Shown in pieces: positions 1 through 13,396 of a stretch of DNA of 34,130 nucleotides (position 1 is its first letter; every line of letters starts with the position of its first letter). A model generated the notes under the pieces. The model searched no databases and was not told the origin of the DNA. It saw only the letters and a list, made by a program, of their open reading frames with translations. Both the position numbers and the translations under genes were made by a program. Source of the stretch: a virus; the IMG/VR virus record IMGVR_UViG_3300021379_001127, positions 1 through 34,130 of that record; one strand, 5' to 3'.

Positions 1-11
1 AGGAGGGGTAC
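1..11. repeat. Left copy of 11-bp terminal direct repeat (candidate cos end)
   Basis: The window begins with AGGAGGGGTAC and ends with the same 11 bases (34120-34130). The repeat is G-rich in an otherwise AT-rich genome. It lies about 170 bp upstream of the first gene of the packaging block once the ends are joined, which is where cos sites of lambdoid phages sit. An overlap left by contig circularisation is the alternative, although 11 bp is shorter than usual assembly overlaps. Confidence 0.55.
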
Positions 12-38
12 GGCAATCAGCATGGTACTATGGAAGAA

Positions 39-58
39 CCTAAAACGCTGTTTTTAGG
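39..58 (-). terminator. Hairpin at the left end, possible end-of-operon terminator
   Basis: CCTAAAA (39-45) and TTTTAGG (52-58) are complementary arms around a short loop. The hairpin lies beyond the last recognisable leftward gene, so it could end the long leftward transcript. The stem is AT-rich and the U-run on the exit side is poor, so this is a weak call. A role in cos/packaging is equally possible. Confidence 0.25.
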
Positions 59-99
59 CTAAAAAAGGCAATTATGCATATATTCGCATACATGCACTA

Positions 100-207
100 C
101 TACTTACTTCCTCTCTTGCCTCGTTTGCTTTTGACATTATGGCAATGGTTCTGTCTTCTGTATCTGTCAATAGATGTGAGCAGATTGTGAATAGATATAT
201 AAACCAT
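100..207 (-). CDS. Possible 35-residue basic peptide
   Basis: This small ORF begins at an ATG that overlaps the stop of a 12-codon ORF (207-245) in a TAATG junction. That 12-codon ORF itself begins in a TAATG junction with the stop of the MazG-like gene. Two successive TAATG junctions are the main support, because the phage uses this junction repeatedly between real genes. The peptide is rich in Arg and Lys towards its end and has no recognisable domain. It could be chance, and no function is proposed. Confidence 0.3.
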   Translation of the reverse strand: MVYISIHNLLTSIDRYRRQNHCHNVKSKRGKRGSK

Positions 208-244
208 TAAGCAGCATAGTACATAACCCAGCCACCAAGAGACA

Positions 245-601
245 TTACTCTTCATTGTTTAGTTTCTTATCTAGCTCAATTTGGTCGGCTCTTGATAGAT
301 CGCTATACTTTACAAATAATCCATCCTTTAGCATACCTTTGCGATCTTTGATCTCTTCATAGGCATAATGTAGGCACTCCCCTAGAGTCATGTTCTTTGA
401 TGCTGCCAGGCCCACCAAACAAACTAATGTGTCACCTATGGCATCCATCAATAATTCATCGTTCTGTTTGTTTAATGCTTGAGCTATCTCACCAAACTCT
501 TCTGCTGTTTTCATAAAGGCATCTTTAGAAGTCGATTGATCCAGGCCTCTAACCTTTCGCCAAGTGATTACATTCTTTTCTAATTGATTTAAATCGTACA
601 T
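245..601 (-). CDS. MazG-like nucleotide pyrophosphohydrolase
   Basis: The 118-residue product carries the all-alpha NTP pyrophosphohydrolase signature: EEFGE at residues 34-38 and DAIGD at 53-57, the ExxE and ExxD pairs that bind Mg2+ in MazG/dUTPase-type enzymes. Such enzymes hydrolyse NTPs or dNTPs to the monophosphate and PPi. Phage versions can alter nucleotide pools or (p)ppGpp-linked signalling in the infected cell. The start at 601 is chosen over an upstream ATG at 640 because it follows a perfect AAAGGACTAAT site and because the upstream codons fall in a long hairpin (624-683). It is the last substantial gene of the leftward transcript. The family call is firm; the substrate is unknown. 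Confidence 0.8.
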   Translation of the reverse strand: MYDLNQLEKNVITWRKVRGLDQSTSKDAFMKTAEEFGEIAQALNKQNDELLMDAIGDTLVCLVGLAASKNMTLGECLHYAYEEIKDRKGMLKDGLFVKYSDLSRADQIELDKKLNNEE

Positions 602-623
602 ATTAGTCCTTTGTTTAAAATAA

Positions 624-683
624 TAACCCTTGACTGCCATTTATTTAATTAGAGAGAGGGCATATGTCGGCAGCCAAGGGTTA
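624..683 (-). terminator. Long-stem intergenic hairpin between endolysin and MazG genes
   Basis: Arms 669-683 and 624-638 are complementary over 15 positions; the single difference is a G-U wobble in the minus-strand RNA. They enclose a 30-nt loop and are followed by a U-rich run. The hairpin lies directly after the endolysin gene stop and before the MazG-like ribosome binding site. It could be a leaky terminator or an RNase III-type processing site. The loop is long for an intrinsic terminator. Confidence 0.55.
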
Positions 684-686
684 AAA

Positions 687-1124
687 CTATGGGTTAAAAT
701 AAGTTGTTTTGTTCACATAATAATCCGAATGAATCTCAATGTGACACCAGGATGGTGTATAATCAAAGTTTTCCACCCTGGAAAGATTAAAATCTGAATC
801 AAACCTTTTGATGATCTCTTGAAGGTTCTCTATATCACCACTCCAAGGCTTTAAATCAAAAGCAAACCATTGTTTGTGCCTTGATCTTTTAGCGCCAATG
901 GGGCAGTTATAAGGACGTACACCAGAGTATTTGTAATTTCCACCCATGTGCCAATCATTGATTCTGATTGCATCATCATAGGCGCTTGAGTATTCTTCTC
1001 TTATTCTATCAAGATTATACTTGACTATCTCTGGTAACAATGCCCAACATTTATCTTCTCCAATGATCTCAAATAGCTCTGGAGATACTAGCTCTTCAAT
1101 ACTGAAATATTTGCATTTATACAT
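687..1124 (-). CDS. M15-family (Hedgehog/DD-peptidase fold) peptidase, probable endolysin
   Basis: The 145-residue protein shows the zinc-peptidase signature of the M15 family: S81-x-H83-x6-D90 (the SxHxxGxAxD block, with Trp where Gly is usual) and a C-terminal W126-C-H128-I-E block. H83, D90 and H128 would be the Zn2+ ligands. M15 enzymes such as VanY and phage L-alanyl-D-glutamate peptidases cut cross-link or stem peptides of peptidoglycan, so this is the best lysis-enzyme candidate in the window. There is no signal peptide, so export would need a holin; two tiny membrane proteins lie immediately upstream. A good AAAGGACTATA site precedes the ATG. The odd Trp in the signature and the lack of any other lysin support a diverged but functional enzyme. 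Confidence 0.7.
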   Translation of the reverse strand: MYKCKYFSIEELVSPELFEIIGEDKCWALLPEIVKYNLDRIREEYSSAYDDAIRINDWHMGGNYKYSGVRPYNCPIGAKRSRHKQWFAFDLKPWSGDIENLQEIIKRFDSDFNLSRVENFDYTPSWCHIEIHSDYYVNKTTYFNP

Positions 1125-1147
1125 TATAGTCCTTTATTTTTTATTCT

Positions 1148-1264
1148 CTATTTTCTTTTTTCTTCAAATTGTCTATAATCTGTATTTTGATGGATCTTGT
1201 AAAAACCAAACAACCATACAGATGATAATAAGGCCAATGAAATCGAGCAAATTATATAAATCAT
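1148..1264 (-). CDS. 38-residue single-span membrane protein (holin-type candidate)
   Basis: This very small ORF starts at an ATG preceded by two purine-rich sites (AAAGGACTAA and AAAGGAC). Residues 2-21 form a hydrophobic segment (IYIICSISLALLSSVWLFGF) followed by a charged cytoplasmic-type tail rich in Lys, Arg, Gln and Glu. The stop lies about 20 nt before the endolysin start, inside the same transcript. Position next to a lysin without a signal peptide makes a holin or lysis-accessory role plausible. No family is recognised, so this remains inference. Confidence 0.6.
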   Translation of the reverse strand: MIYIICSISLALLSSVWLFGFYKIHQNTDYRQFEEKRK

Positions 1265-1296
1265 GATTTTGTCCTTTTTAGTCCTTTATAAAAAAT

Positions 1297-1348
1297 GGCG
1301 GCCTGCTTAACAAAAGGACTAAGTAAAATTAAGCACATTAAGGCCGCC
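1297..1348 (-). terminator. GC-rich hairpin with U-run and an anti-RBS loop
   Basis: In the minus-strand RNA, GGCGGCCU (1348-1341) pairs with AGGCCGCC (1304-1297) and GCUUAA (1334-1329) with UUAAGC (1310-1305), with a 6-nt bulge on one side. AUUUUUUAU follows, as in an intrinsic terminator. The loop contains CUUAGUCCUUU, the exact complement of the AAAGGACUAA ribosome binding site that begins about 10 nt after the stem. The hairpin therefore could both terminate and mask translation of the downstream 38-residue membrane protein. Confidence 0.75.
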
Positions 1349-1363
1349 ACCCCTAAAAATAGT

Positions 1364-1471
1364 TTATTTTGAGCCTAATTGTAAAAAAATTGGAATTAAA
1401 AATATACCCAAAAAAATAAAAAAAGCAATTGCATCTATTAGATCTTTTTTATCATCTTCTTCTTCATTCAT
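1364..1471 (-). CDS. 35-residue single-span membrane protein
   Basis: The ORF begins in an ATGA overlap with the stop of the upstream 134-residue gene, the commonest junction type here. The first 11 residues are acidic and charged (MNEEEDDKKDL). The rest is a hydrophobic helix rich in Phe, Ile and Leu ending in GSK. It is a convincing small membrane protein by composition and by translational coupling. It lies just before the strong hairpin at 1297-1348, and with the next small membrane ORF and the endolysin it could form the lysis cassette. No homologue is recognised. Confidence 0.6.
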   Translation of the reverse strand: MNEEEDDKKDLIDAIAFFIFLGIFLIPIFLQLGSK

Positions 1472-1872
1472 TTATTATAACCCTGCTTTTTAAATGCTCC
1501 AATAGTTCCAAATTTCAAATTAGCTATATTTGGCCCACCTTGCAAATAAATTGTTGGCCTGCTGTCTTCTGTCGATTCGTCACGCTTCCAACTTCCATAA
1601 TTATTCATGAAGTAATCATCATGCTGCGCTTTGGTAATGGCTTCTTCTAAGGTGATCTGTGGCATAATTCCATTCTTACTGTGATAACTCATGCAGGTAG
1701 TTTGAAGGCCTTGAGCTACAAATTGCTTGAGATCCATATCTCTAGTGTATTTAGGTCGCTGAGATCCTGCTTTACGCTCACCTTTCCCCTGGCCTGCTAA
1801 ATTAATCTCTCCAAGTAATGCGATGATCTGATCTAGCTTTTCTAATAGCTGTTCCTCTCTATATCCAATCAT
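1468..1872 (-). CDS. Hypothetical protein, paralogue of the gene at 4719-5159
   Basis: The 134-residue protein has an N-terminal helical segment (REEQLLEKLDQIIALLGE), a basic linker, and a C-terminal domain containing LEEAITKAQHDDYFMNNY, RPTIYLQGG and LKFGTIGAFKKQG. The same blocks occur in the same order in the 146-residue product of 4719-5159 (FKEAFEKAKSDKTFMENY, RPTMFFEGH, LEFGTNGEFMKRFKKG), so the two genes are paralogues. They bracket the IbrA/IbrB-like cassette. The start overlaps the stop of the previous gene (ATGA). I do not recognise the family and give no function. Confidence 0.85.
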   Translation of the reverse strand: MIGYREEQLLEKLDQIIALLGEINLAGQGKGERKAGSQRPKYTRDMDLKQFVAQGLQTTCMSYHSKNGIMPQITLEEAITKAQHDDYFMNNYGSWKRDESTEDSRPTIYLQGGPNIANLKFGTIGAFKKQGYNK

Positions 1873-2177
1873 GCTAACTCCGTAAGTAAATAATGAACAG
1901 AAAAAGGTAAATCATCAGAGCTTAATGGATAATTATAATGTTCAATATCATAAATGGATAATGATACATTTTCCCCATTAATCAACGGTTTCTCTTTTAG
2001 TTGATAAGCTACTATTTTTGATGATTCAATAGTTTGATTTTGGATATTTTTTGTTGAATCTTTTTGTAGAATCCAGAAGGTTAATTGTTCTTTGAATTCA
2101 CCAAAAACGAAAGTTTTGCATTCAAAACTCCCATATGCTGTATATTGCCCTTCCATTGCAAATTTAACTTTATACAT
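1869..2177 (-). CDS. Hypothetical protein, tandem paralogue of the next gene
   Basis: This 102-residue protein starts MYKVKF and has GSFE at residues 17-20. Its upstream neighbour (2170-2505) starts MYKVNY and has GSFE at the same position, followed by similar beta-strand-like blocks ending in a segment on Tyr/Phe-Pro. The two are probably an old tandem duplication. The start at 2177 lies within the last codons of the upstream gene, preceded by AAAAAGGATTAAATC. No known domain is seen. Confidence 0.8.
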   Translation of the reverse strand: MYKVKFAMEGQYTAYGSFECKTFVFGEFKEQLTFWILQKDSTKNIQNQTIESSKIVAYQLKEKPLINGENVSLSIYDIEHYNYPLSSDDLPFSVHYLLTELA

Positions 2178-2505
2178 GATTTAATCCTTTTTGTCTAAAA
2201 GCGCTTAACAAATCAAAAGCTTCTTCATAGCGCCTAACTGTCTCATCATTTCCATTTCTGTTTGCGATCACTTCGAAATCAATACAATCCCTTTCGATTG
2301 GGAAATCAAATTCTTTCACATTTAGGTAGATTGTTTTACCATAAACCTCTGGGGCTTTGGATAAATGCAAAATAGATAAAGATTTCTCACCACAAAAATC
2401 CACTATTGTAAAAAACTCATTTTCATTAAATGAGCAGTTTTCTACTTCAAAAGATCCCATTTGAGTAATGTTGTTTTGTCTGAATGTGTAATTAACTTTA
2501 TACAT
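2170..2505 (-). CDS. Hypothetical protein, tandem paralogue of the previous gene
   Basis: The 111-residue product shares the MYKV start, the GSFE block near residue 18 and a late strand-proline pattern with the product of 1869-2177. It has an extra C-terminal helical segment (RRYEEAFDLLSAFRQKG). The ribosome binding site GAGGACTAA is built from the last codons and stop of the IbrB-like gene, so translation of the two is coupled. Its place directly behind ibrB suggests it belongs to the same functional cassette. Function unknown. Confidence 0.8.
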   Translation of the reverse strand: MYKVNYTFRQNNITQMGSFEVENCSFNENEFFTIVDFCGEKSLSILHLSKAPEVYGKTIYLNVKEFDFPIERDCIDFEVIANRNGNDETVRRYEEAFDLLSAFRQKGLNHV

Positions 2506-2508
2506 AAT

Positions 2509-3138
2509 TTAGTCCTCTTTATCATCCCAAGCTTTTGAAAATTCGTGATCTTTGAATAATTCTTGCAATCCCGATATCTGAGCTAATCTCAAAACTTCAT
2601 CTGGATCCATTCCTAATTCTTTGCCAATTTTTTTGTTACTCCAATTGCGTTTTTTTAAATCTACTACAATGTCACTCATCGATTCAACTTTGTGTTTTCC
2701 TCTAGCTCTATTATGCCTTATAGTTGAAGCTACTCTATCATTAATACCTTCTTGAGATTCTCTTATGGTAACAACAGGTAAATAACCATAAACTCTTTTT
2801 TGAATATCTTTACATTCTTTACCTACTCTATTCCTATGGAATCCATCTATTACTTCTCTTGAAGTATCACCATCAATCATTGAAACAATTGGCTGCGTAT
2901 ATCCATCTTGAGAAATTGAATGCCTTAATAATTCCATTTCTGGAGGCGCTACTGAATTTGGATTATAATCATTTGCATGAACTGTCTCATTTTTAACCCA
3001 TAAAACACAATCGACTGGTTCTGTATTAAATGGACTTACTTCATGTAATCCCATTTTTAATTCATTTATAAAATCAACTTTTTCATCAAGTTCTAAATTT
3101 AAAATATGTTCTTGTATTGATTTGATTAGCTCTTTCAT
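2509..3138 (-). CDS. ibrB: IbrB-like ParB-domain protein
   Basis: The 209-residue protein has the ParB/sulfiredoxin-fold core: VHANDYNPN at residues 53-61, SISQDGYTQPIV at 74-85, and the nucleotide/Mg-binding box DGFHRNRVG at 98-106 with RHNRARGKH at 141-149. A C-terminal helix-turn-helix-like stretch (IGKELGMDPDEVLRLAQISGL) follows. This is the architecture of IbrB, described as a co-activator of prophage gene expression in E. coli and always paired with IbrA. The partner gene is directly upstream and overlaps it by 4 nt (ATGA), so the two are co-translated. Whether this copy acts as a CTPase, nuclease or transcription factor cannot be told from sequence. Confidence 0.85.
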   Translation of the reverse strand: MKELIKSIQEHILNLELDEKVDFINELKMGLHEVSPFNTEPVDCVLWVKNETVHANDYNPNSVAPPEMELLRHSISQDGYTQPIVSMIDGDTSREVIDGFHRNRVGKECKDIQKRVYGYLPVVTIRESQEGINDRVASTIRHNRARGKHKVESMSDIVVDLKKRNWSNKKIGKELGMDPDEVLRLAQISGLQELFKDHEFSKAWDDKED

Positions 3139-4361
3139 TTTTTGTCCTTTTGTAGATATTTTTCTTCTTGTCTTTTTTTCTTTTTAAACTCTAAATATTT
3201 CTTATATGCAGTTGTTTTTTGTTGAGTAAAACCTAATCCTTTACACCAATAATCATTCCTTAATAACGATTTACAAACCCTTTTCCATGATGGAGCCAAT
3301 TTTTTTGATTCTAAAACTTGCGGAGCCTCATCTGGTATCCCATTTGGATAACCTCTAGATTCCCACCATTTTTCAAATGTGTAAATTTTATTCAAATAAT
3401 GTTCTTTTGTAACATCTGGAATTGAATTTAAAAACAATTCAGCAAAAGATCGCCAAGTATGGCCTTCTGGTTTTTTTATAGAATTATAACCTGTTATTGA
3501 TCCAGATTCGTTTATATATAAAGCGCCCGAATTTGCTCCATTTACTCTTGCTACTACTTTGGCCCATGTCTCTGGTTCTATTAAATGAAACAACCACAAA
3601 CCTCTTCTTTGATCATCTCCATATGGTTGGCAGATTCTTTGTTGGTGAATCGAAAGACCTGCTTTGTGCATCATGTCATACAATTTATTATATGACTTAT
3701 CTGTGAATTTCGCATGATAAATCCATATGTCTTCTGTTCTCCAATCATATATGGGATAAAAATTATAAACACTATCAGTAACTTTTGTTGTGTAACATAG
3801 GTCATCTTTTCTTTCTTTTACTTTACTTGTAATAGTCCTATATCGATTTAAAGATTCATCACTTCTTATACCAACAAAGCAAGCAGTTTCTTTGCCATTT
3901 GCGTACCATTCTCCGAATTCTGGTACAAATTCTTCAAACTCCATCCCTTTTTGAAAAAATGGAAAATAATTTAAATCTGTAATAGCCCATTCTGGAGGCT
4001 GCCTAATCCACTCTTCTTTTACTTTTTCATCCCAACAAATCCAAAAAGGTTCATATACTGATACTGCATTTCTCAAATGTATAGGAAGACAAACCCAATA
4101 TAAATCTATATACTCCTTATATTCATTTAAAATTTCAGTCATGTGTTGAATAGTCAATTTATATTGCCCTTCTAAATCAACTACTAACACTCCAATTTTT
4201 GTGTTTCTTTTTATTGCCTCTTCCATCGTTAAATGGAGCATTGTTGTCGAATCTTTACCACCAGAATATGATAAATAAATTTTCTCAAAATTATCAAAAG
4301 CATATTCAATCCGTTGTTTTGATGCTTCATGTACATTTATTTCTAATCTATTCTTCGGCAT
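3135..4361 (-). CDS. ibrA: IbrA-like PAPS reductase/ATP-pyrophosphatase family protein (DUF3440)
   Basis: The 408-residue protein opens with the PP-loop SGGKDS (residues 33-38) of the adenine nucleotide alpha-hydrolase superfamily, which binds ATP or PAPS and adenylates substrates or handles sulfur. Blocks such as VVDLEGQYKLTIQHM, IRQPPEWAITDLNYFPFF and CQPYGDDQRRGLW match my memory of the E. coli IbrA/DUF3440 family. The full length agrees with that family and the C-terminus is Lys-rich. It overlaps ibrB by 4 nt downstream and the 123-residue gene by 14 nt upstream. Related PP-loop proteins (DndC) work in DNA phosphorothioation, so a DNA-modifying or anti-defence role is possible but is inference. 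Confidence 0.9.
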   Translation of the reverse strand: MPKNRLEINVHEASKQRIEYAFDNFEKIYLSYSGGKDSTTMLHLTMEEAIKRNTKIGVLVVDLEGQYKLTIQHMTEILNEYKEYIDLYWVCLPIHLRNAVSVYEPFWICWDEKVKEEWIRQPPEWAITDLNYFPFFQKGMEFEEFVPEFGEWYANGKETACFVGIRSDESLNRYRTITSKVKERKDDLCYTTKVTDSVYNFYPIYDWRTEDIWIYHAKFTDKSYNKLYDMMHKAGLSIHQQRICQPYGDDQRRGLWLFHLIEPETWAKVVARVNGANSGALYINESGSITGYNSIKKPEGHTWRSFAELFLNSIPDVTKEHYLNKIYTFEKWWESRGYPNGIPDEAPQVLESKKLAPSWKRVCKSLLRNDYWCKGLGFTQQKTTAYKKYLEFKKKKRQEEKYLQKDKK

Positions 4362-4719
4362 ACATTGACTCCCAACATAAAAGCACTTTTTCTGCTATTT
4401 TATTAGCATTCTCTCTAACTTCTTTGTCTAAACTTGACCAACAATCCATTGTAACTGTTGATGGAACACCACCATAAATACAACAAGCTGCTTGACCTAT
4501 ATAAGCTATTCTATTCATTGATTTATTTGATAAATTATGTTCGCAAGAATATCTCCATTCATTTATGACTCTAAACATATAGTCTTCACAAATTCTAGAA
4601 TTCTCAAATAATTCAAATACTTTGTTTTCTAAATCAACTCTATTCTTTCCAGAAATATTGTCATAAAAACCATTTTTATGGTCTTCCCACAAGTTCCAAG
4701 GATGATATACTTGTTCCAT
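4348..4719 (-). CDS. Hypothetical protein of the IbrA/IbrB cassette
   Basis: This 123-residue protein is rich in Trp and Cys. It has a central block MNRIAYIGQAACCIYGGVPS followed by a helix KEVRENANKIAEKVLLCWESM. It is joined to its neighbours by a TAATG junction upstream and a 14-nt overlap with ibrA downstream, which implies obligate co-expression. I associate such a small helical protein with ibrAB-type operons in other phages, but only from memory and without a name. It could be a third subunit or a substrate-side partner. No catalytic motif is seen. Confidence 0.8.
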   Translation of the reverse strand: MEQVYHPWNLWEDHKNGFYDNISGKNRVDLENKVFELFENSRICEDYMFRVINEWRYSCEHNLSNKSMNRIAYIGQAACCIYGGVPSTVTMDCWSSLDKEVRENANKIAEKVLLCWESMYAEE

Positions 4720-5159
4720 TATTTAGCCCCTTTTTTAAATCTTTTCATAAATTCGCCATTAGTTCCAAATTCCAAGTGATTTAATCCCCACTTGTGACCT
4801 TCAAAAAACATTGTAGGCCTTTTAAATTTATCACCCTTAATCCAAAGGTTATAATTCTCCATAAATGTTTTATCTGATTTAGCCTTTTCAAATGCTTCTT
4901 TAAATGTTACCTGGGTTTTATTATCAAATCCCTTTTTCTCTAATTTAGAGTTAATTCCTTTTTCAGCTACTTTCCAAGACTTCTCCATGAAAACTTCAAA
5001 TGAATCCGATGGATCCCACTTTTCTCTTTTTGGTTTACTCGGCGCCAAATTTGATGGATTGTTTTGATTACCTTGTAGCAATGTTATTGCTTCAAATAAT
5101 GTGTTTAGTTTATCATCGAGAGGCAATTCATGCCACTCTTCTTTTTTAATATTAAGCAT
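4719..5159 (-). CDS. Hypothetical protein, paralogue of the gene at 1468-1872
   Basis: This 146-residue protein is the first gene after the structured RNA region. It starts at an ATG preceded by AAAAGGACTAATTA. A helical N-terminus (LDDKLNTLFEAITLLQG) leads through a Pro/Lys linker into a domain shared with the 1468-1872 product (FKEAFEKAKSDKTFMENY, RPTMFFEGH, LEFGTNGEFMKRFKKG). The two paralogues form the first and last parts of the ibrAB cassette, so both may contact the same partner. Function unknown. Confidence 0.85.
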   Translation of the reverse strand: MLNIKKEEWHELPLDDKLNTLFEAITLLQGNQNNPSNLAPSKPKREKWDPSDSFEVFMEKSWKVAEKGINSKLEKKGFDNKTQVTFKEAFEKAKSDKTFMENYNLWIKGDKFKRPTMFFEGHKWGLNHLEFGTNGEFMKRFKKGAK

Positions 5160-5195
5160 TAATTAGTCCTTTTGCTTACATAAATGTTTAGAAGT

Positions 5196-5381
5196 AAATT
5201 TTACCTTACTTAAATCCTAGAAGATACAAACACTGCGAATAAGCTTCGGAAGGGCGCTTGTAAAGCGGCAGCCCTTTCGGAGTTTATACCGTAGTGACTG
5301 TATATTTCTTTCTCGCTACACGAGAAATATCCAGCCCCTGGGCATAAGTCCTAAAGAACTTAAGGATCTTTGGTAAAATTT
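5196..5381 (-). ncRNA. Candidate structured RNA with closing stem and branched interior
   Basis: The 235-nt gap between genes holds nested complementary arms in the minus-strand RNA. P1 pairs 5381-5372 with 5205-5196, 10 of 10. P2 pairs 5369-5363 with 5218-5212, 7 pairs with one G-U. P3 is a 7-pair hairpin (5362-5356 with 5351-5345) with a UUUA loop. P4 is 7 of 7 (5327-5321 with 5315-5309). P5 pairs 5303-5293 with 5234-5224, 10 of 11. P6 is a 5+5 bp hairpin (5276-5272/5254-5250 and 5267-5263/5259-5255) with a UAC loop. All nest without conflict. It is not a tRNA or any class I can name. It lies directly upstream of the ibrAB cassette, so it could be a leader element or a free RNA. Confidence 0.7.
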
Positions 5382-5394
5382 AAATTTTTAAATC

Positions 5395-5778
5395 TCATAT
5401 TTCAAGTCCCCTTTTTGAAAAATCTAATATTCTTGTTTGAGTTACTTTAGCCCATTGATCTACTTGATTTGTGATGCTATAAATTAGGTCATTTCGGCTA
5501 AACTTTGGTTTGTCTAGGTAGCTCAATAATTGGCTTTCCAGGTCGTGAAATTGCTCATCAGTAATGAAAAAATAGTAGCTCATATAGTAAGATCTTAATC
5601 TCAATAAGTAGCTTCTCATCACTTTAAACCATCTATCTGGATGATCATTATAGAGCTTTTCTAGTAAGATTGGATCTCTCGATACTTCCATTTGGAAGGT
5701 GTTATTTGATGTAATTCTGTGGTTCATTTGAAAGATTAATTCTTCAATAATCTCTAAACTTCGGCGCCGATCTTCCAT
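5395..5778 (-). CDS. Hypothetical protein, helical
   Basis: The start at 5778 is chosen because it lies right after the stop of the upstream gene (TAATATG); an ATG-initiated extension to 5844 would overlap that gene by 65 nt. The 127-residue product is helical and rich in Arg, Tyr and Leu (RRRSLEIIEELIFQMNH, YLLRLRSYYMSYYFF). It has no motif I recognise. It is the last gene before the structured RNA at 5196-5381. Confidence 0.7.
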   Translation of the reverse strand: MEDRRRSLEIIEELIFQMNHRITSNNTFQMEVSRDPILLEKLYNDHPDRWFKVMRSYLLRLRSYYMSYYFFITDEQFHDLESQLLSYLDKPKFSRNDLIYSITNQVDQWAKVTQTRILDFSKRGLEI

Positions 5779-5779
5779 A

Positions 5780-6154
5780 TTAATACTCCAAAACCTCACC
5801 TTTGCCAATGTATTTTTTAAAATGTGTCCACTCGCCTCCTTCACCTTTTAGAGCAAACTTAGAGCCTTCTTTGGTGGTCATGCCTACTGTAAATGTAGCT
5901 CCCTGCCAAAGCCAAGCTAATAATAAAGCTAATGGAATCCCTATCATGGTCAAGGCTAAAATAATAATGATCAGCTTTTGTCCAGTTGTTTTGCCATTCT
6001 CTTTATGGATTAATTTGATGCTCTTAAAGTCTTTGGGCATATTATATTTTTCAACTTTTAACAAATTGACTGATATTGATATAGTTGAACCACCTAATAA
6101 ACTTGAGTAAACTATCGCTTTTTTACCTTCGTAAATACCATCTAATACTTTCAT
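5780..6154 (-). CDS. Membrane protein with one or two hydrophobic segments, unknown function
   Basis: The start at 6154 overlaps the upstream stop in an ATGA junction and follows AAAGGAAAAAGAA, so it is preferred over an ATG at 6181. The 124-residue product has a soluble N-terminus of about 60 residues, a long hydrophobic stretch (LIIIILALTMIGIPLALLLA and a following Trp-rich part), then a Gly/Glu-rich C-terminus. This could be one long span or a helical hairpin. It might be a membrane-active moron, a superinfection-exclusion factor or a holin, but nothing decides between these. Confidence 0.75.
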   Translation of the reverse strand: MKVLDGIYEGKKAIVYSSLLGGSTISISVNLLKVEKYNMPKDFKSIKLIHKENGKTTGQKLIIIILALTMIGIPLALLLAWLWQGATFTVGMTTKEGSKFALKGEGGEWTHFKKYIGKGEVLEY

Positions 6155-6656: not shown

Positions 6657-7171
6657 TTTCCTGCCTCCTTTTCCCAAAGTCTCTCTGCCCAATCACAAGC
6701 CATTAAATAATCCCAGTGTGTGTCTTCACTATGCTGTTTAGCTATCTTGTCTTTTAGCTCTTTAATTGTACCCCAAAAACAACCTGCTTGGACTTTAATT
6801 TCATCACCATTTACTATATAAAACATTCTCCCACTTGAATTAGCTTTAAATAGCAAAATGTTTTTAGCTTCTTCAAGATCAGCTCCTCTAAGATTAGCTC
6901 CTCTAAGATAAGCTCCTCTAAGATTAGCTCCTCTAAGATTAGCTCCTCTAAGATTAGCTCCTCTAAGATAAGCTCCTCTAAGATTAGCTCCTCTAAGATA
7001 AGCTCCTCTAAGATAAGCTCCTCTAAGATTAGCTTCTTCAAGATCAGCTCCTCTAAGATCAGCTCCTTCAAGATCAGCTCCTTCGCTAACCGCCTTTTCT
7101 ACCACTTCACTTATGGTGGGTAGATCAGCCTCATAAATTACTTCTTTTGTGTATCTACTAAATATCTTCAT
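6653..7171 (-). CDS. Pentapeptide-repeat protein
   Basis: The start at 7171 is chosen because it forms a TAATG junction with the upstream gene and follows GGGGAGGTAGAG, the strongest SD in the window. The 172-residue product has an N-terminal cap of about 30 residues, then about 14 consecutive A(D/N/Y)L(R/E)(G/E) pentapeptides. These predict a right-handed quadrilateral beta-helix of about three and a half turns. A globular C-terminal domain follows ([20 protein letters not shown]...). Some pentapeptide proteins mimic DNA and protect gyrase (Qnr, MfpA), but this helix is short and no such role can be assigned. The C-terminal domain resembles that of other phage pentapeptide proteins as I remember them. 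Confidence 0.85.
6868..7083. repeat. 15-bp tandem repeats within the pentapeptide gene
   Basis: About 14 tandem copies of a 15-bp unit close to AGCTCCTCTAAGATT (plus strand) encode the pentapeptides. Many copies are identical or differ only at the base that decides Asn versus Tyr. Such near identity points to recent expansion by slippage or unequal recombination and predicts copy-number variation between isolates. Confidence 0.9.
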
Positions 7172-9314: not shown

Positions 9315-9334
9315 TTTTTAGTCCTTTGTTTTGA

Positions 9335-9448
9335 TTAGTAGCCTACATAAATATCTGTAACATTAAACTCAATCAGATCTTTAAAGTGAACTGAATTTGA
9401 ATATCCATCCATAAGTTTGTCGGAAAATTGAAAGTATGTAAAAATCAT
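9335..9448 (-). CDS. 37-residue peptide, first gene after the replication-block terminator
   Basis: The ORF begins ATGATTTTTACA after a perfect AAAGGACTAAAC site and ends just before the AAAGGACTAA of the next gene. It encodes a small acidic/aromatic peptide (HFKDLIEFNVTDIYVGY at the end). Good SD, tight packing and position behind a promoter-like region support it despite its size. Function unknown. Confidence 0.6.
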   Translation of the reverse strand: MIFTYFQFSDKLMDGYSNSVHFKDLIEFNVTDIYVGY

Positions 9449-9475
9449 TGTTTAGTCCTTTGTGTCAGTTATTGT

Positions 9476-9517
9476 CTTAACTTGTTTTAAATATATATCG
9501 CATTTCTCAAAAATCAA
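9476..9517 (-). promoter_or_regulatory. Candidate sigma70-type promoter for the accessory operon
   Basis: On the minus strand TTGATT (9517-9512) is followed after 16 nt by TATATT (9495-9490). The intergenic motif AAAACAAGTTA, shared with several other gene starts, follows (9486-9476). It lies between the terminator of the replication block and the first small gene, where a new promoter is expected. Confidence 0.5.
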
Positions 9518-9537
9518 AGGGCAATATTAAAATAAAT

Positions 9538-9565
9538 AAAAAAAAGTTCACTATCTCTAGTGAAC
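9538..9565 (-). terminator. Intrinsic terminator ending the replication block
   Basis: GTTCACTA (9565-9558) pairs perfectly with TAGTGAAC (9553-9546) around a GAGA tetraloop and is followed by eight or more T residues on the minus strand. The stop codon of the primase-helicase gene lies in the hairpin (loop/stem edge). This is a textbook rho-independent terminator. Confidence 0.92.
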
Positions 9566-11479
9566 CTCCTTTAATACTACCATTCCTCCATTTAAACTCA
9601 TCTGCAAACCTTCATATGGCTTCATACTCATTATATGCTTTTTCAGCTTTTGTTCTGGTATATCTATACTCTTTTTAAAGTCTTTCCAATATAGGCTTTG
9701 ATTCATATCTCCACCGCTGAGAGTTAAAAAGCTATCGTAGATATCTTGATCATTTATTTTCTTTTTAAGATCTCCATCTACTTGAGCATCTTTTAATGAA
9801 TCATCGATAACATGGATAGGCCAATCAAACCTAATCCCAATAGGATCAAATGCAGGAAATTCACGCAGCACTCCTTCTAATAAATATGCGTTCTGTTCAT
9901 CTTTTATTTCAGACATTGTAATAATAGCGTCTGGATCTCTACCAAAAACACCACTACCACTTATGCGATCAGTTGGCGATTTCTCACCTTGTTTACCTTT
10001 CGAGAAATGCGCTGCAATAATAATAGAACATCCAGTCTGAACAGCTATCTGATCTAAATAATTCATCATGGATGTAATATCGCCTGCATTGTTCTCATCA
10101 CGTTGGCCCATCATCTTATAAGCAGGATCAAGTATTACGGCGCCGTACTTTCTATCTTTAATCTTTCTGATAATCTGAGGCGCAAGCTCTTCAATCCCTG
10201 CACTCTTTCCTCGTAGGTTCCAAACATCTAAATTTGAATAATCGTTTATTCCAAGCTTTTTTCCTACTTCAAGCACTCGATTATAAAAAGATGATCTAGC
10301 AATCTCAAAGTTTACGATTAATACACTTGATTCTTTTACACCAAATCCAAAAAAAGGCCTTCCTGCTTGTAATGATAGAGCCAAGTTAATTAACCAGAAT
10401 GTTTTACCTGCTTTAGATGGCCCACCTATAAGCATTTTGTGGCCTTGCCTAAGCATTCCATCAATGAGAACTGGATCAAGATCTGGATCTTCTGCTTTGA
10501 TGCTATCAAATGATTCTATATCTGGTAAATCTGTGGCTTTCTTTTCCCACCATTGAACCCAAGTTTCAAAGTCTGGCTGTCCACTTCTGTCTGCAATTAA
10601 ATACTGCTGTTGCGTACCACGCATCACTCCAACTAATCTTGAGAGCCTGGATGGATTCTTATTTGAATGGTCAATTTCGAAACCTTGCGTTTCTAAGATC
10701 TCATAAATATAGGCGCATCGTTTTTTATACTGATCAATATTTTCAGCTTCTACTCGTACCCACGCATGGATAGATTTTCCACCAGAATGTATTAAACCAC
10801 TTACAGGCAATTGAAGCTCTCTGTAAATAGATAGCTGCTCTTCCATTGGTAATGTGTCGGATTCTACTAGAACATGTCTAAAAGCAGTTACATTGGCATC
10901 TTTTACATCTTGTCCATCCATCGGATTAATACGCATATAAGCGCCATTATTGTGGCCTATCCATTCATGTAGCTTTTCTGTTGGAGCCTCTAGAAGTTGC
11001 CCCACGCTCATTGTGGTGCCTTTTGATGCAGGTACATGCTTTCCATCTCGTTCCATGAGATCTTTTACAATGCAGATCTTTTCGTTCTCGTTAAATCCAC
11101 TTGAAAGCAATCTTTTTAGATCATGTTCCCATGTACTCGAAGGAGGTGGGATTTCAGCTTTATAAACTTCTATTTTACGTTTTGGAGCATGAAGCATGCC
11201 CCCAAGATCATCATCCCAATCTAGGTTAACTCCAATGTTACCACCTTCTAATCTTGGCGCATCACTGATTGGCCTATCAAAAGCGGATCGAATGGTTTGC
11301 ATGATTTCGCCATAAGGAAGTCCATCACCTTGTGCTTTGTTTAATAATGCCTGTTCTGCTTGTGTTTGTGTATAGCCTTCATCCTTGCAAGCAGCAGCAG
11401 CCTTGAACAGCTCATGATTCCTGCCACCTTTAAAGATAGGTGTGTTTAAATATTCATCAATAATTTTTTGAAAGCTCAT
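9557..11479 (-). CDS. Primase-helicase (AEP-like primase plus RecA/RepA-type ATPase)
   Basis: The 640-residue protein has an N-terminal PriCT-like helical region (residues ~1-70) and a central archaeo-eukaryotic-type primase domain with VESD at 205-208, SGGKSIHAW at 232-240 and EIDHSNKNPSRLSRL near 268-282. A C-terminal RecA-fold helicase follows, with Walker A GPSKAGKT at 353-360 and a Walker B-like VILDP strand. It probably primes and unwinds phage DNA at the replication fork, while the host supplies the polymerase. The ATG follows AAAGGACTAAA. Downstream its stop falls in a strong terminator. Upstream lie two hairpins that may control it or mark the origin. Confidence 0.88.
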   Translation of the reverse strand: MSFQKIIDEYLNTPIFKGGRNHELFKAAAACKDEGYTQTQAEQALLNKAQGDGLPYGEIMQTIRSAFDRPISDAPRLEGGNIGVNLDWDDDLGGMLHAPKRKIEVYKAEIPPPSSTWEHDLKRLLSSGFNENEKICIVKDLMERDGKHVPASKGTTMSVGQLLEAPTEKLHEWIGHNNGAYMRINPMDGQDVKDANVTAFRHVLVESDTLPMEEQLSIYRELQLPVSGLIHSGGKSIHAWVRVEAENIDQYKKRCAYIYEILETQGFEIDHSNKNPSRLSRLVGVMRGTQQQYLIADRSGQPDFETWVQWWEKKATDLPDIESFDSIKAEDPDLDPVLIDGMLRQGHKMLIGGPSKAGKTFWLINLALSLQAGRPFFGFGVKESSVLIVNFEIARSSFYNRVLEVGKKLGINDYSNLDVWNLRGKSAGIEELAPQIIRKIKDRKYGAVILDPAYKMMGQRDENNAGDITSMMNYLDQIAVQTGCSIIIAAHFSKGKQGEKSPTDRISGSGVFGRDPDAIITMSEIKDEQNAYLLEGVLREFPAFDPIGIRFDWPIHVIDDSLKDAQVDGDLKKKINDQDIYDSFLTLSGGDMNQSLYWKDFKKSIDIPEQKLKKHIMSMKPYEGLQMSLNGGMVVLKEVH

Positions 11480-11497
11480 TTTAGTCCTTTAATAAAA

Positions 11498-11529
11498 ATT
11501 ATAAAAGCCATTCACCTGGTTATTGTCAA
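11498..11529 (-). promoter_or_regulatory. Weak promoter candidate before the primase-helicase gene
   Basis: A perfect TTGACA (11529-11524) and a perfect TATAAT (11503-11498) occur in the right order on the minus strand, but 20 nt apart, wider than the ideal 17. The RBS and ATG follow within 25 nt. The TATAAT also lies at the foot of a hairpin, so the match may be fortuitous. Confidence 0.35.
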
Positions 11530-11566
11530 AGTATCTCAAGTTTCAACAGTTATAGTGAATGGCTTT
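11504..11566 (-). other. 12-bp stem, large-loop hairpin upstream of primase-helicase
   Basis: AAAGCCATTCAC (11504-11515) and GTGAATGGCTTT (11555-11566) are perfect complements with a 39-nt loop, followed on the minus strand by a TATAATTTTT run. The loop contains TTGAGATA, also present in the loop of the neighbouring hairpin. It may be a terminator, processing site, protein-binding site or origin element. Confidence 0.65.
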
Positions 11567-11574
11567 AAATTTTA

Positions 11575-11612
11575 TGCCCTAAACTATCTCAATTCTGATA
11601 TAATGTAGGGCA
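11575..11612 (-). other. 7-bp stem hairpin sharing a loop motif with its neighbour
   Basis: TGCCCTA (11575-11581) pairs with TAGGGCA (11606-11612) around a 24-nt AT-rich loop that holds TTGAGATA (minus strand, 11592-11585). It lies just after the stop of the ssDNA-binding protein gene and before the second hairpin. Confidence 0.55.
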
Positions 11613-11627
11613 ATTTTCCAAATATAA

Positions 11628-12192: not shown

Positions 12193-12897
12193 TTACTTTT
12201 CTCCTTTAAAATATGGTTCTAAAACTTTATAATCTAAATCAAGCATATCTGGTATGCCATATCTGTTTTTCGCATCACGAGCTGCTGTATGTGTGGCCCA
12301 AATCTTTCTTTGGTATCCACCTACTGCTTTCCCTTCGATCACCTGTCGATCATGGTTTGCAAATAAAACCGCATCGGCCCACTCTTTATATAATGGAGTA
12401 GTTCTTTTGTGGCATTTCATTTGCCATCGATCTAATGGCTCTGAAAGTTCTGGATCGTTAAATTTTTCAATCTTCGCATGAGCTAATAAAAAAACTCCGA
12501 TCCCTTTCTCGATTAGCATATCCAAAGCAGAGATAAAAGATTTTGTAAGCTCTTCAAGTTTGACGTAACCCTTGCCAAAGCCAAAGTCTTCTATTGATTT
12601 CTTGCTGTTCTCTTCGCAGATGTTTGCCACCATCATAGATTCAAGCCAATCAACTGTATCAACTACAATAGTCTTGAACTCATGCTGCTCCTTTAATAAA
12701 AAAGAGAACACATCTTTTACATCATGCCATGTGTCGCAATTAACTCTTGGAACTTCAAAGTTATCGGTTCCTCGTTCAGTACAGATGAATAATGGATTGG
12801 GTGTACCTACTCCAAAGGTAGTTTTTCCCACTCCCTCTGGTGCGTATAATACGACACGAGGTGGCTTTATCACCTTATCACGAATGATATTTATCAT
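12193..12897 (-). CDS. Sak4-like RecA-fold ATPase (single-strand annealing recombinase family)
   Basis: The 234-residue protein has Walker A APEGVGKT at residues 19-26 and Walker B TIVVD ending at D80, with a later sensor-type strand GVFLLAHAKIE. This is the layout of the phage AAA_24/Sak4 nucleotide-binding proteins, which resemble a minimal Rad51/RecA core and promote annealing with a cognate SSB. The DUF669 gene directly downstream fits that partnership. Start at an ATG after AAAAGGACTGAAAT. It probably acts in replication-linked recombination. Confidence 0.82.
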   Translation of the reverse strand: MINIIRDKVIKPPRVVLYAPEGVGKTTFGVGTPNPLFICTERGTDNFEVPRVNCDTWHDVKDVFSFLLKEQHEFKTIVVDTVDWLESMMVANICEENSKKSIEDFGFGKGYVKLEELTKSFISALDMLIEKGIGVFLLAHAKIEKFNDPELSEPLDRWQMKCHKRTTPLYKEWADAVLFANHDRQVIEGKAVGGYQRKIWATHTAARDAKNRYGIPDMLDLDYKVLEPYFKGEK

Positions 12898-12925
12898 ATT
12901 TCAGTCCTTTTTATCCTCCACTTAA

Positions 12926-13396
12926 TTATGAAGGTTTCAATAATTTACTTTCAATTGCTGCTTTTAACAAGGGTTCTTTTTCAACTTTTAAATTTTCTGC
13001 CCCTTTTTGAAATAAACTAAGAAGCTCGCCATAAGGATCTATCTCTTCGATTTCAATATATCCAAAGCCTGTTTGACTCTTTTTTTGGAAATAATAACAT
13101 TTAAAAAAGTTTGGATTATCATCTGCAATGTGGCCTGTTTTTACGAAAGCATCTATTAAAATTTTGAATCCACCAATTAAATTAGCCTCATCAAATTGTC
13201 GTTTTCTAGGCCCCCAATGGCGAGTAATCCTAAATGCTTTTCTTTCCTCTTCTTCTCCTGTGCCTAGTAAATTCTCAATGTCATTTATTAGGTCTTCTCT
13301 TAATTTCTTGTATTTCCATCGTTGGCCTCTTTTATTGGCGCCGTAGATTGGACTATTTGCACTTATAGCTTCCCTCTCTATAACCATATGAATCAT
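12926..13396 (-). CDS. RusA-like Holliday junction resolvase
   Basis: The 156-residue product has the RusA signature of spaced acidic residues: D69-E-A-N72 (the D-x-x-N type block), D82 in the following helix, and the GHIADDNPNFF turn with D92 and D93. These residues bind Mg2+ in RusA, which cuts four-way junctions and helps resolve branched DNA before packaging. A Lys/Arg-rich N-terminal part would contact DNA. It is the first gene of the replication/recombination block and starts 3 nt after the stop of the tail-tip gene. Confidence 0.82.
   Translation of the reverse strand: MIHMVIEREAISANSPIYGANKRGQRWKYKKLREDLINDIENLLGTGEEEERKAFRITRHWGPRKRQFDEANLIGGFKILIDAFVKTGHIADDNPNFFKCYYFQKKSQTGFGYIEIEEIDPYGELLSLFQKGAENLKVEKEPLLKAAIESKLLKPS

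Follow-up and report, generated by a model that had tools for sequence, protein, structure and literature searches.

An orphan structured intergenic element between the replication and lysis genes of an uncultured phage

The locus and its non-coding gap

The window analysed here, a stretch of 34,130 bp, is the record of an uncultured virus of bacteria and carries phage genes, all sizeable ones of which lie on the minus strand. Read in the minus-strand direction, replication genes (primase at 9557-11479) are followed by the small gene g149 (5395-5844), the element described in this study (5196-5381), g146 (4719-5159), a putative cargo and the endolysin gene (687-1124, phrog_894), and then by the terminase and structural genes if the map is closed. 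The cargo comprises g123 (4348-4719), located between ibrA and g146, ibrA (3135-4361), which encodes a PAPS reductase with DUF3440, and the ParB-like ibrB (2509-3138), all on the minus strand. A pentapeptide-repeat-like gene with tandem repeats is present at 6801-7141 (minus strand), in which an alternative frame is likewise open and contains repeats. The motif AAAGGACT was found at 12 sites (1.7 expected), 11 of them on the minus strand and several immediately upstream of start codons; it appears to be the ribosome-binding motif of this phage.

The minus-strand genes g149 and g146 flank a gap of 235 nt (5160-5394), in which ORFs of at least 20 codons are absent, apart from overlaps with the flanking frames. 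The original prediction took this for the only long gap in this part of the genome. Its length was confirmed, and no second long gap lies in the region from about 1.5 to 9.3 kb; the genome has others at 1125-1467, 9315-9556 and 11480-11627. Structure is ordinary in the gaps at 1125-1467 and 9315-9556 (z of 0.25 and 0.93).

The element within the gap folds better than all of 200 dinucleotide shuffles on both strands. For the plus strand of 5196-5381 an energy of −68.3 kcal/mol was calculated (shuffle mean −38.3, z −7.2), and for the minus strand −57.1 kcal/mol (shuffle mean −41.6, z −4.3). When 104 windows of the contig were sampled, the element was the most extreme one (z −7.8/−5.4; background mean −0.4, sd 1.3), and a lower raw energy was seen only in the tandem-repeat gene at ~6.8-7.1 kb. 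Its outermost arms, AAATTTTACC at 5196-5205 and GGTAAAATTT at 5372-5381, form a perfect inverted repeat of 10 bp (11 bp with 5195/5382) across 166 nt, and an outer perfect inverted repeat with arms this long was reached in 1 of 200 shuffles. Self-complementarity of the element is far beyond chance and the structure is real, as had been proposed from its complementary arms and the outermost pair that closes the whole.

Between the closing arms we located a long central hairpin with arms at 5219-5258 and 5267-5309 (37 pairs on the plus strand) and three smaller hairpins seen in the fold: TTCTCG-ctaca-CGAGAA at 5310-5326, the short TCCAG/CTGGG at 5330-5342, and TAAGT/ACTTA at 5345-5362. On the minus strand, the last of these holds a ribosome-site-like AGGACTT followed by an ATG and a mini-ORF of 9 codons, which we rejected as meaningful because it is absent in the relative described below.

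Comparison of the window with the 4227 models of Rfam 15 gave no match above the gathering threshold; the best sub-threshold match of the element reached 21.6 bits against a cut-off of 60. ARAGORN detected neither a tRNA nor a tmRNA in the element. The view that it fits no known RNA class thus held up against these families.

The element in a related phage

A terminase search of viral contigs yielded six contigs, one of which (IMGVR_UViG_3300024346_000333, 31 kb, here L140) covers the region and is syntenic. Identity of the proteins is 69% for the primase, 50% for the endolysin, 35% for the g146 orthologue (12969-13352 in L140) and 25% for the g149 orthologue (12292-12684), in which a central motif is conserved. 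The endolysin gene follows the g146 orthologue as in the window, and an orthologous element sits between the same two neighbour genes, in the gap 12685-12968. It has the same closing arms (TAAATTTTACCT kept in the left arm, GTAAAATTT identical in the right), enclosing ~180 nt versus 186 nt in the window. Position, length and ends of the element are therefore conserved where replication genes give way to lysis genes.

The longest word common to the two gaps has 20 nt, compared to a maximum of 15 nt in 2000 shuffles. This box, TTTAAAAATTTAAATTTTAC, is present once per phage, on the minus strand, at 5373-5392 in the window and at 12721-12740 in L140. The interiors of the two elements cannot be aligned. 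The interior of the relative's element likewise folds better than expected by chance (z −5.0 and −4.2), and this element, too, has no family match in Rfam. A pairwise consensus fold of both elements has only 8-9 pairs, and the closing stem is the only secondary structure that we consider common to both phages; two sequences with unalignable interiors are too few for covariation. As judged from these two sequences, the element is one of fixed ends and length with a divergent structured core.

Searches for further members gave no additional copy. Protein searches of viral contigs with g149 and g146 found no homologues, an exact search for a core word found nothing, and blastn of the element against phage and plasmid records revealed no copies. 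A covariance model of the element gave no credible copy in ~130 viral loci (80 of them with ibrA) and 10 whole records; a weak match in one locus (L100, E 0.31) was dismissed, since it lies inside an ORF of 83 codons. When viral contigs were scanned with a pattern covering the element end to end, 21 loci were returned; one was the known relative, and the other 20 were rejected as unrelated after inspection of their sequence, reading frames and folding. The terminase had no match in bacterial genomes, the endolysin had only distant matches in genomes, and neither terminase nor g149 led to further relatives among the phages with ibrA.

The palindrome GGCGCC is ~18-fold over-represented in the AT-rich window (18 copies versus 0.95 expected, sites from 5041 to 32872) and is absent from positions 1-5040, which include the ibrAB cargo. 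L140 has 31 copies, enrichment was also seen in relatives L139 and L141-L146, and the median in 130 other viral loci is 0.

Strand, neighbourhood and possible functions

The original prediction placed the element directly upstream of ibrAB and suggested a leader or riboregulator of this operon. Both are on the same replicon and the distance to ibrA is ~0.8 kb, but g146 and g123 lie in between. At 80 viral ibrA loci, ibrB was found in 79 cases, g123 in 73 and g146 in none; viral contigs share g123-ibrA-ibrB as a conserved cassette, without g146 and without the element, of which no credible copy was detected at any of the 80 loci. Moreover, the orthologous element is present in L140, in whose 31-kb contig, which may be incomplete, ibrA was not detected. 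These data largely refute a role as ibrAB leader, which we regard as scarcely credible. Separating the structure from ibrAB averts a false riboswitch claim.

The paralogous small genes g146 and 1468-1872 flank the g123-ibrA-ibrB genes (together with 1869-2505), and L140 has a single copy of the paralogue and no detectable ibrA. Since the second paralogue lies beyond the cassette, g123-ibrA-ibrB looks like cargo inserted between the two.

It had also been suggested that the G-U pairs of the stems work in the minus-strand RNA and that this is the transcribed strand. This was not borne out. Allowing either wobble, the element has 78 pairs, and a dynamic programming count that treats both wobble types alike gave 6 G-U pairs for the plus strand and 6 for the minus strand (4 versus 3 between the strands of the relative). 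Most wobbles of the central stem favour the plus strand, and four A-C mismatches are left in its minus-strand fold; the small hairpins near 5310-5362 lean to the minus strand. The energy difference between the strands (−11.2, favouring plus) was reached by none of 400 shuffles (+2.9 ± 3.6), which are a poor null for this comparison as they lack inverted repeats. Composition accounts for the strand preference of the relative (96 of 400 shuffles). A strand call from folding energy is not upheld by the symmetric count, and with the opposing leanings of the hairpins either strand may be the transcribed one.

A stand-alone RNA of ~190 nt from the plus strand would be antisense to all genes. The closing stem would form its ends, with AAATTTTT downstream serving as a weak terminator. 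The RNA could act in trans (as decoy or in counter-defence) or against g149, into the 3′ end of which it would run. Such an RNA would profit from the cleaner plus-strand fold (−68.3 kcal/mol, z −7.2, no 1x1 mismatches) and from the strand difference seen in 0 of 400 shuffles. The T-run past the plus-strand end is identical in both phages, and conserved ends, closing stem and length around a diverged interior would fit an RNA for which shape or a fast-changing target matters. Against it stand the even split of the wobbles and the relative's preference, which reflects composition, and a convincing plus-strand promoter was not found. We rank this possibility second and consider it somewhat unlikely.

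Third in our ranking, and rather unlikely, is a site that functions as DNA and not as RNA, its arms and palindromes serving as protein sites or single-strand hairpins, e.g., in replication or partition, or as a paired operator. Pairing is strand-symmetric (78 pairs with either wobble, 6 to 6), and the arms are conserved base by base, without any compensatory changes, which suits recognition of the sequence. The GC skew does not turn at 5.2 kb, however, the distance between the arms (178 versus 170 bp from centre to centre) differs by 8 bp so that helical phase is not kept, and the unalignable interior is not a conserved set of binding sites.

The terminal inverted repeats are flanked by TA, and on the minus strand short hairpins precede the long one as in retron msr-msd, features that could point to a MITE-like mobile insertion or a degenerate retron or intron. 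Such an origin is very improbable, considering the single copy in the contig, the lack of copies in phage or plasmid records, and the same position in a diverged relative. A reverse transcriptase (PF00078) is absent from both contigs, while the positive control was detected, and no intron match was found.

Our tentatively preferred reading, which ranks first but which we hold as possible rather than probable, is that of a cis-acting control region with a folding transcript at the start of the late unit with its lysis, packaging and structural genes. A minus-strand transcript would begin at the conserved AT-rich box on the g149 side of the element. The first ~170 nt of the transcript would fold into stems, and by analogy to the lambda pR′ leader or HK022 put the fold may govern entry of RNA polymerase into the late genes, with g149 in the role of a regulator. 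Promoter, transcribed strand, action on polymerase and the role of g149 are parts that we infer.

The late-control reading is favoured by the same gene order in window and relative, and by the identical 20-nt box on the g149 side of a gap that otherwise cannot be aligned. The box overlaps a promoter-like TTGAAA-17-TAAATT (5405-5377). In both phages these hexamers match at 9 of 12 positions with 17-nt spacing (TTGAAA or TTTAAA, then TAAATT). A probable intrinsic terminator, a hairpin with a U-tract on the minus strand (1351-1288, −23.9 kcal/mol), separates the 1468-1872 gene from the endolysin gene; polymerase would need to be carried past it, or transcription to restart. In a tblastn search of a phage database, the relative's g149 protein had a single match, an antitermination protein Q (PF06323; E 0.03).

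Several observations disfavour late control. The folding energy in the window favours the plus strand, and candidate promoters occur at chance frequency for AT-rich DNA (41 matches versus 53 expected). A start at the candidate promoter would also place one arm of the closing stem in the −10 region, outside the RNA, and at the element's own end no terminator was found.

Further points against this reading concern g149, which has the position of Q and other late regulators. Its product is a small protein, predicted at low confidence to be all-helical. No match to Pfam, PHROG or NCBIfam was obtained, for Pfam not even at E 10 and with the orthologue included. The similarity of the relative's g149 protein to Q failed in profile comparison (hhalign, probability 4%). 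Genome-wide searches with PF06323 and PF06530 were empty, the PF06323 positive control likewise giving no match. An AlphaFold model of g149 (pLDDT 64, no fold match) was too uncertain to be used as evidence.

Comparison with known systems

The element of this phage clade is real and matches no Rfam family; orphan structured intergenic element is the most fitting label for it. That it represents a new class of phage ncRNA, with fixed ends and closing stem, a fast-evolving core of constant length, a place at the early/late junction and possibly a trans-acting function (on host defence or RNA polymerase), we regard as unlikely. If it is an RNA, it would be a phage element as yet unclassified, its frame constant and its core exchanged, at the point where the phage would switch to late genes. 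Such elements escape family-based annotation because sequence conservation is lacking.

In lambdoid phages gene Q, the late promoter pR′ and a leader lie at the replication/lysis junction, and the late leader of lambda is the 6S RNA. In Q-dependent antitermination, the promoter carries Q-binding repeats, and the earliest transcribed bases contain a −10-like pause element (PMC6606751). The lambdoid late region (gene Q, pR′, leader, tR′; PMC6606751) is located between replication and lysis genes like our element, and the two share a small gene directly upstream, a non-coding stretch of leader size and a terminator before the lysis gene. In contrast to the lambdoid arrangement, g149 is not a detectable Q, the promoter is only a candidate with a chance-level match in AT-rich DNA, the terminator is ~4 kb away, and the degree of structure in the interior goes far beyond what a short leader would require.

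The put RNA of HK022 (~70 nt, two stem-loops) binds the zinc-binding domain of the RNA polymerase beta′ subunit and suppresses termination (PMC9378689). Both are structured phage non-coding elements near a promoter, a proposed one in our case, and before terminators. By size and build the element does not fit put: it has ~186 nt and six helices including a closing stem, and is not at an early promoter; the sequences were compared via Rfam only. The element resembles retron msr-msd in its closing inverted repeat and, on the minus strand, in the order of short hairpins before a long one, but the contig lacks a reverse transcriptase and the element is not a member. Like orphan ncRNA candidates from intergenic screens (PMC6429828), it is long, relatively GC-rich, strongly folding and without a family; it differs from them in having two members with unalignable interiors and no covariation support.
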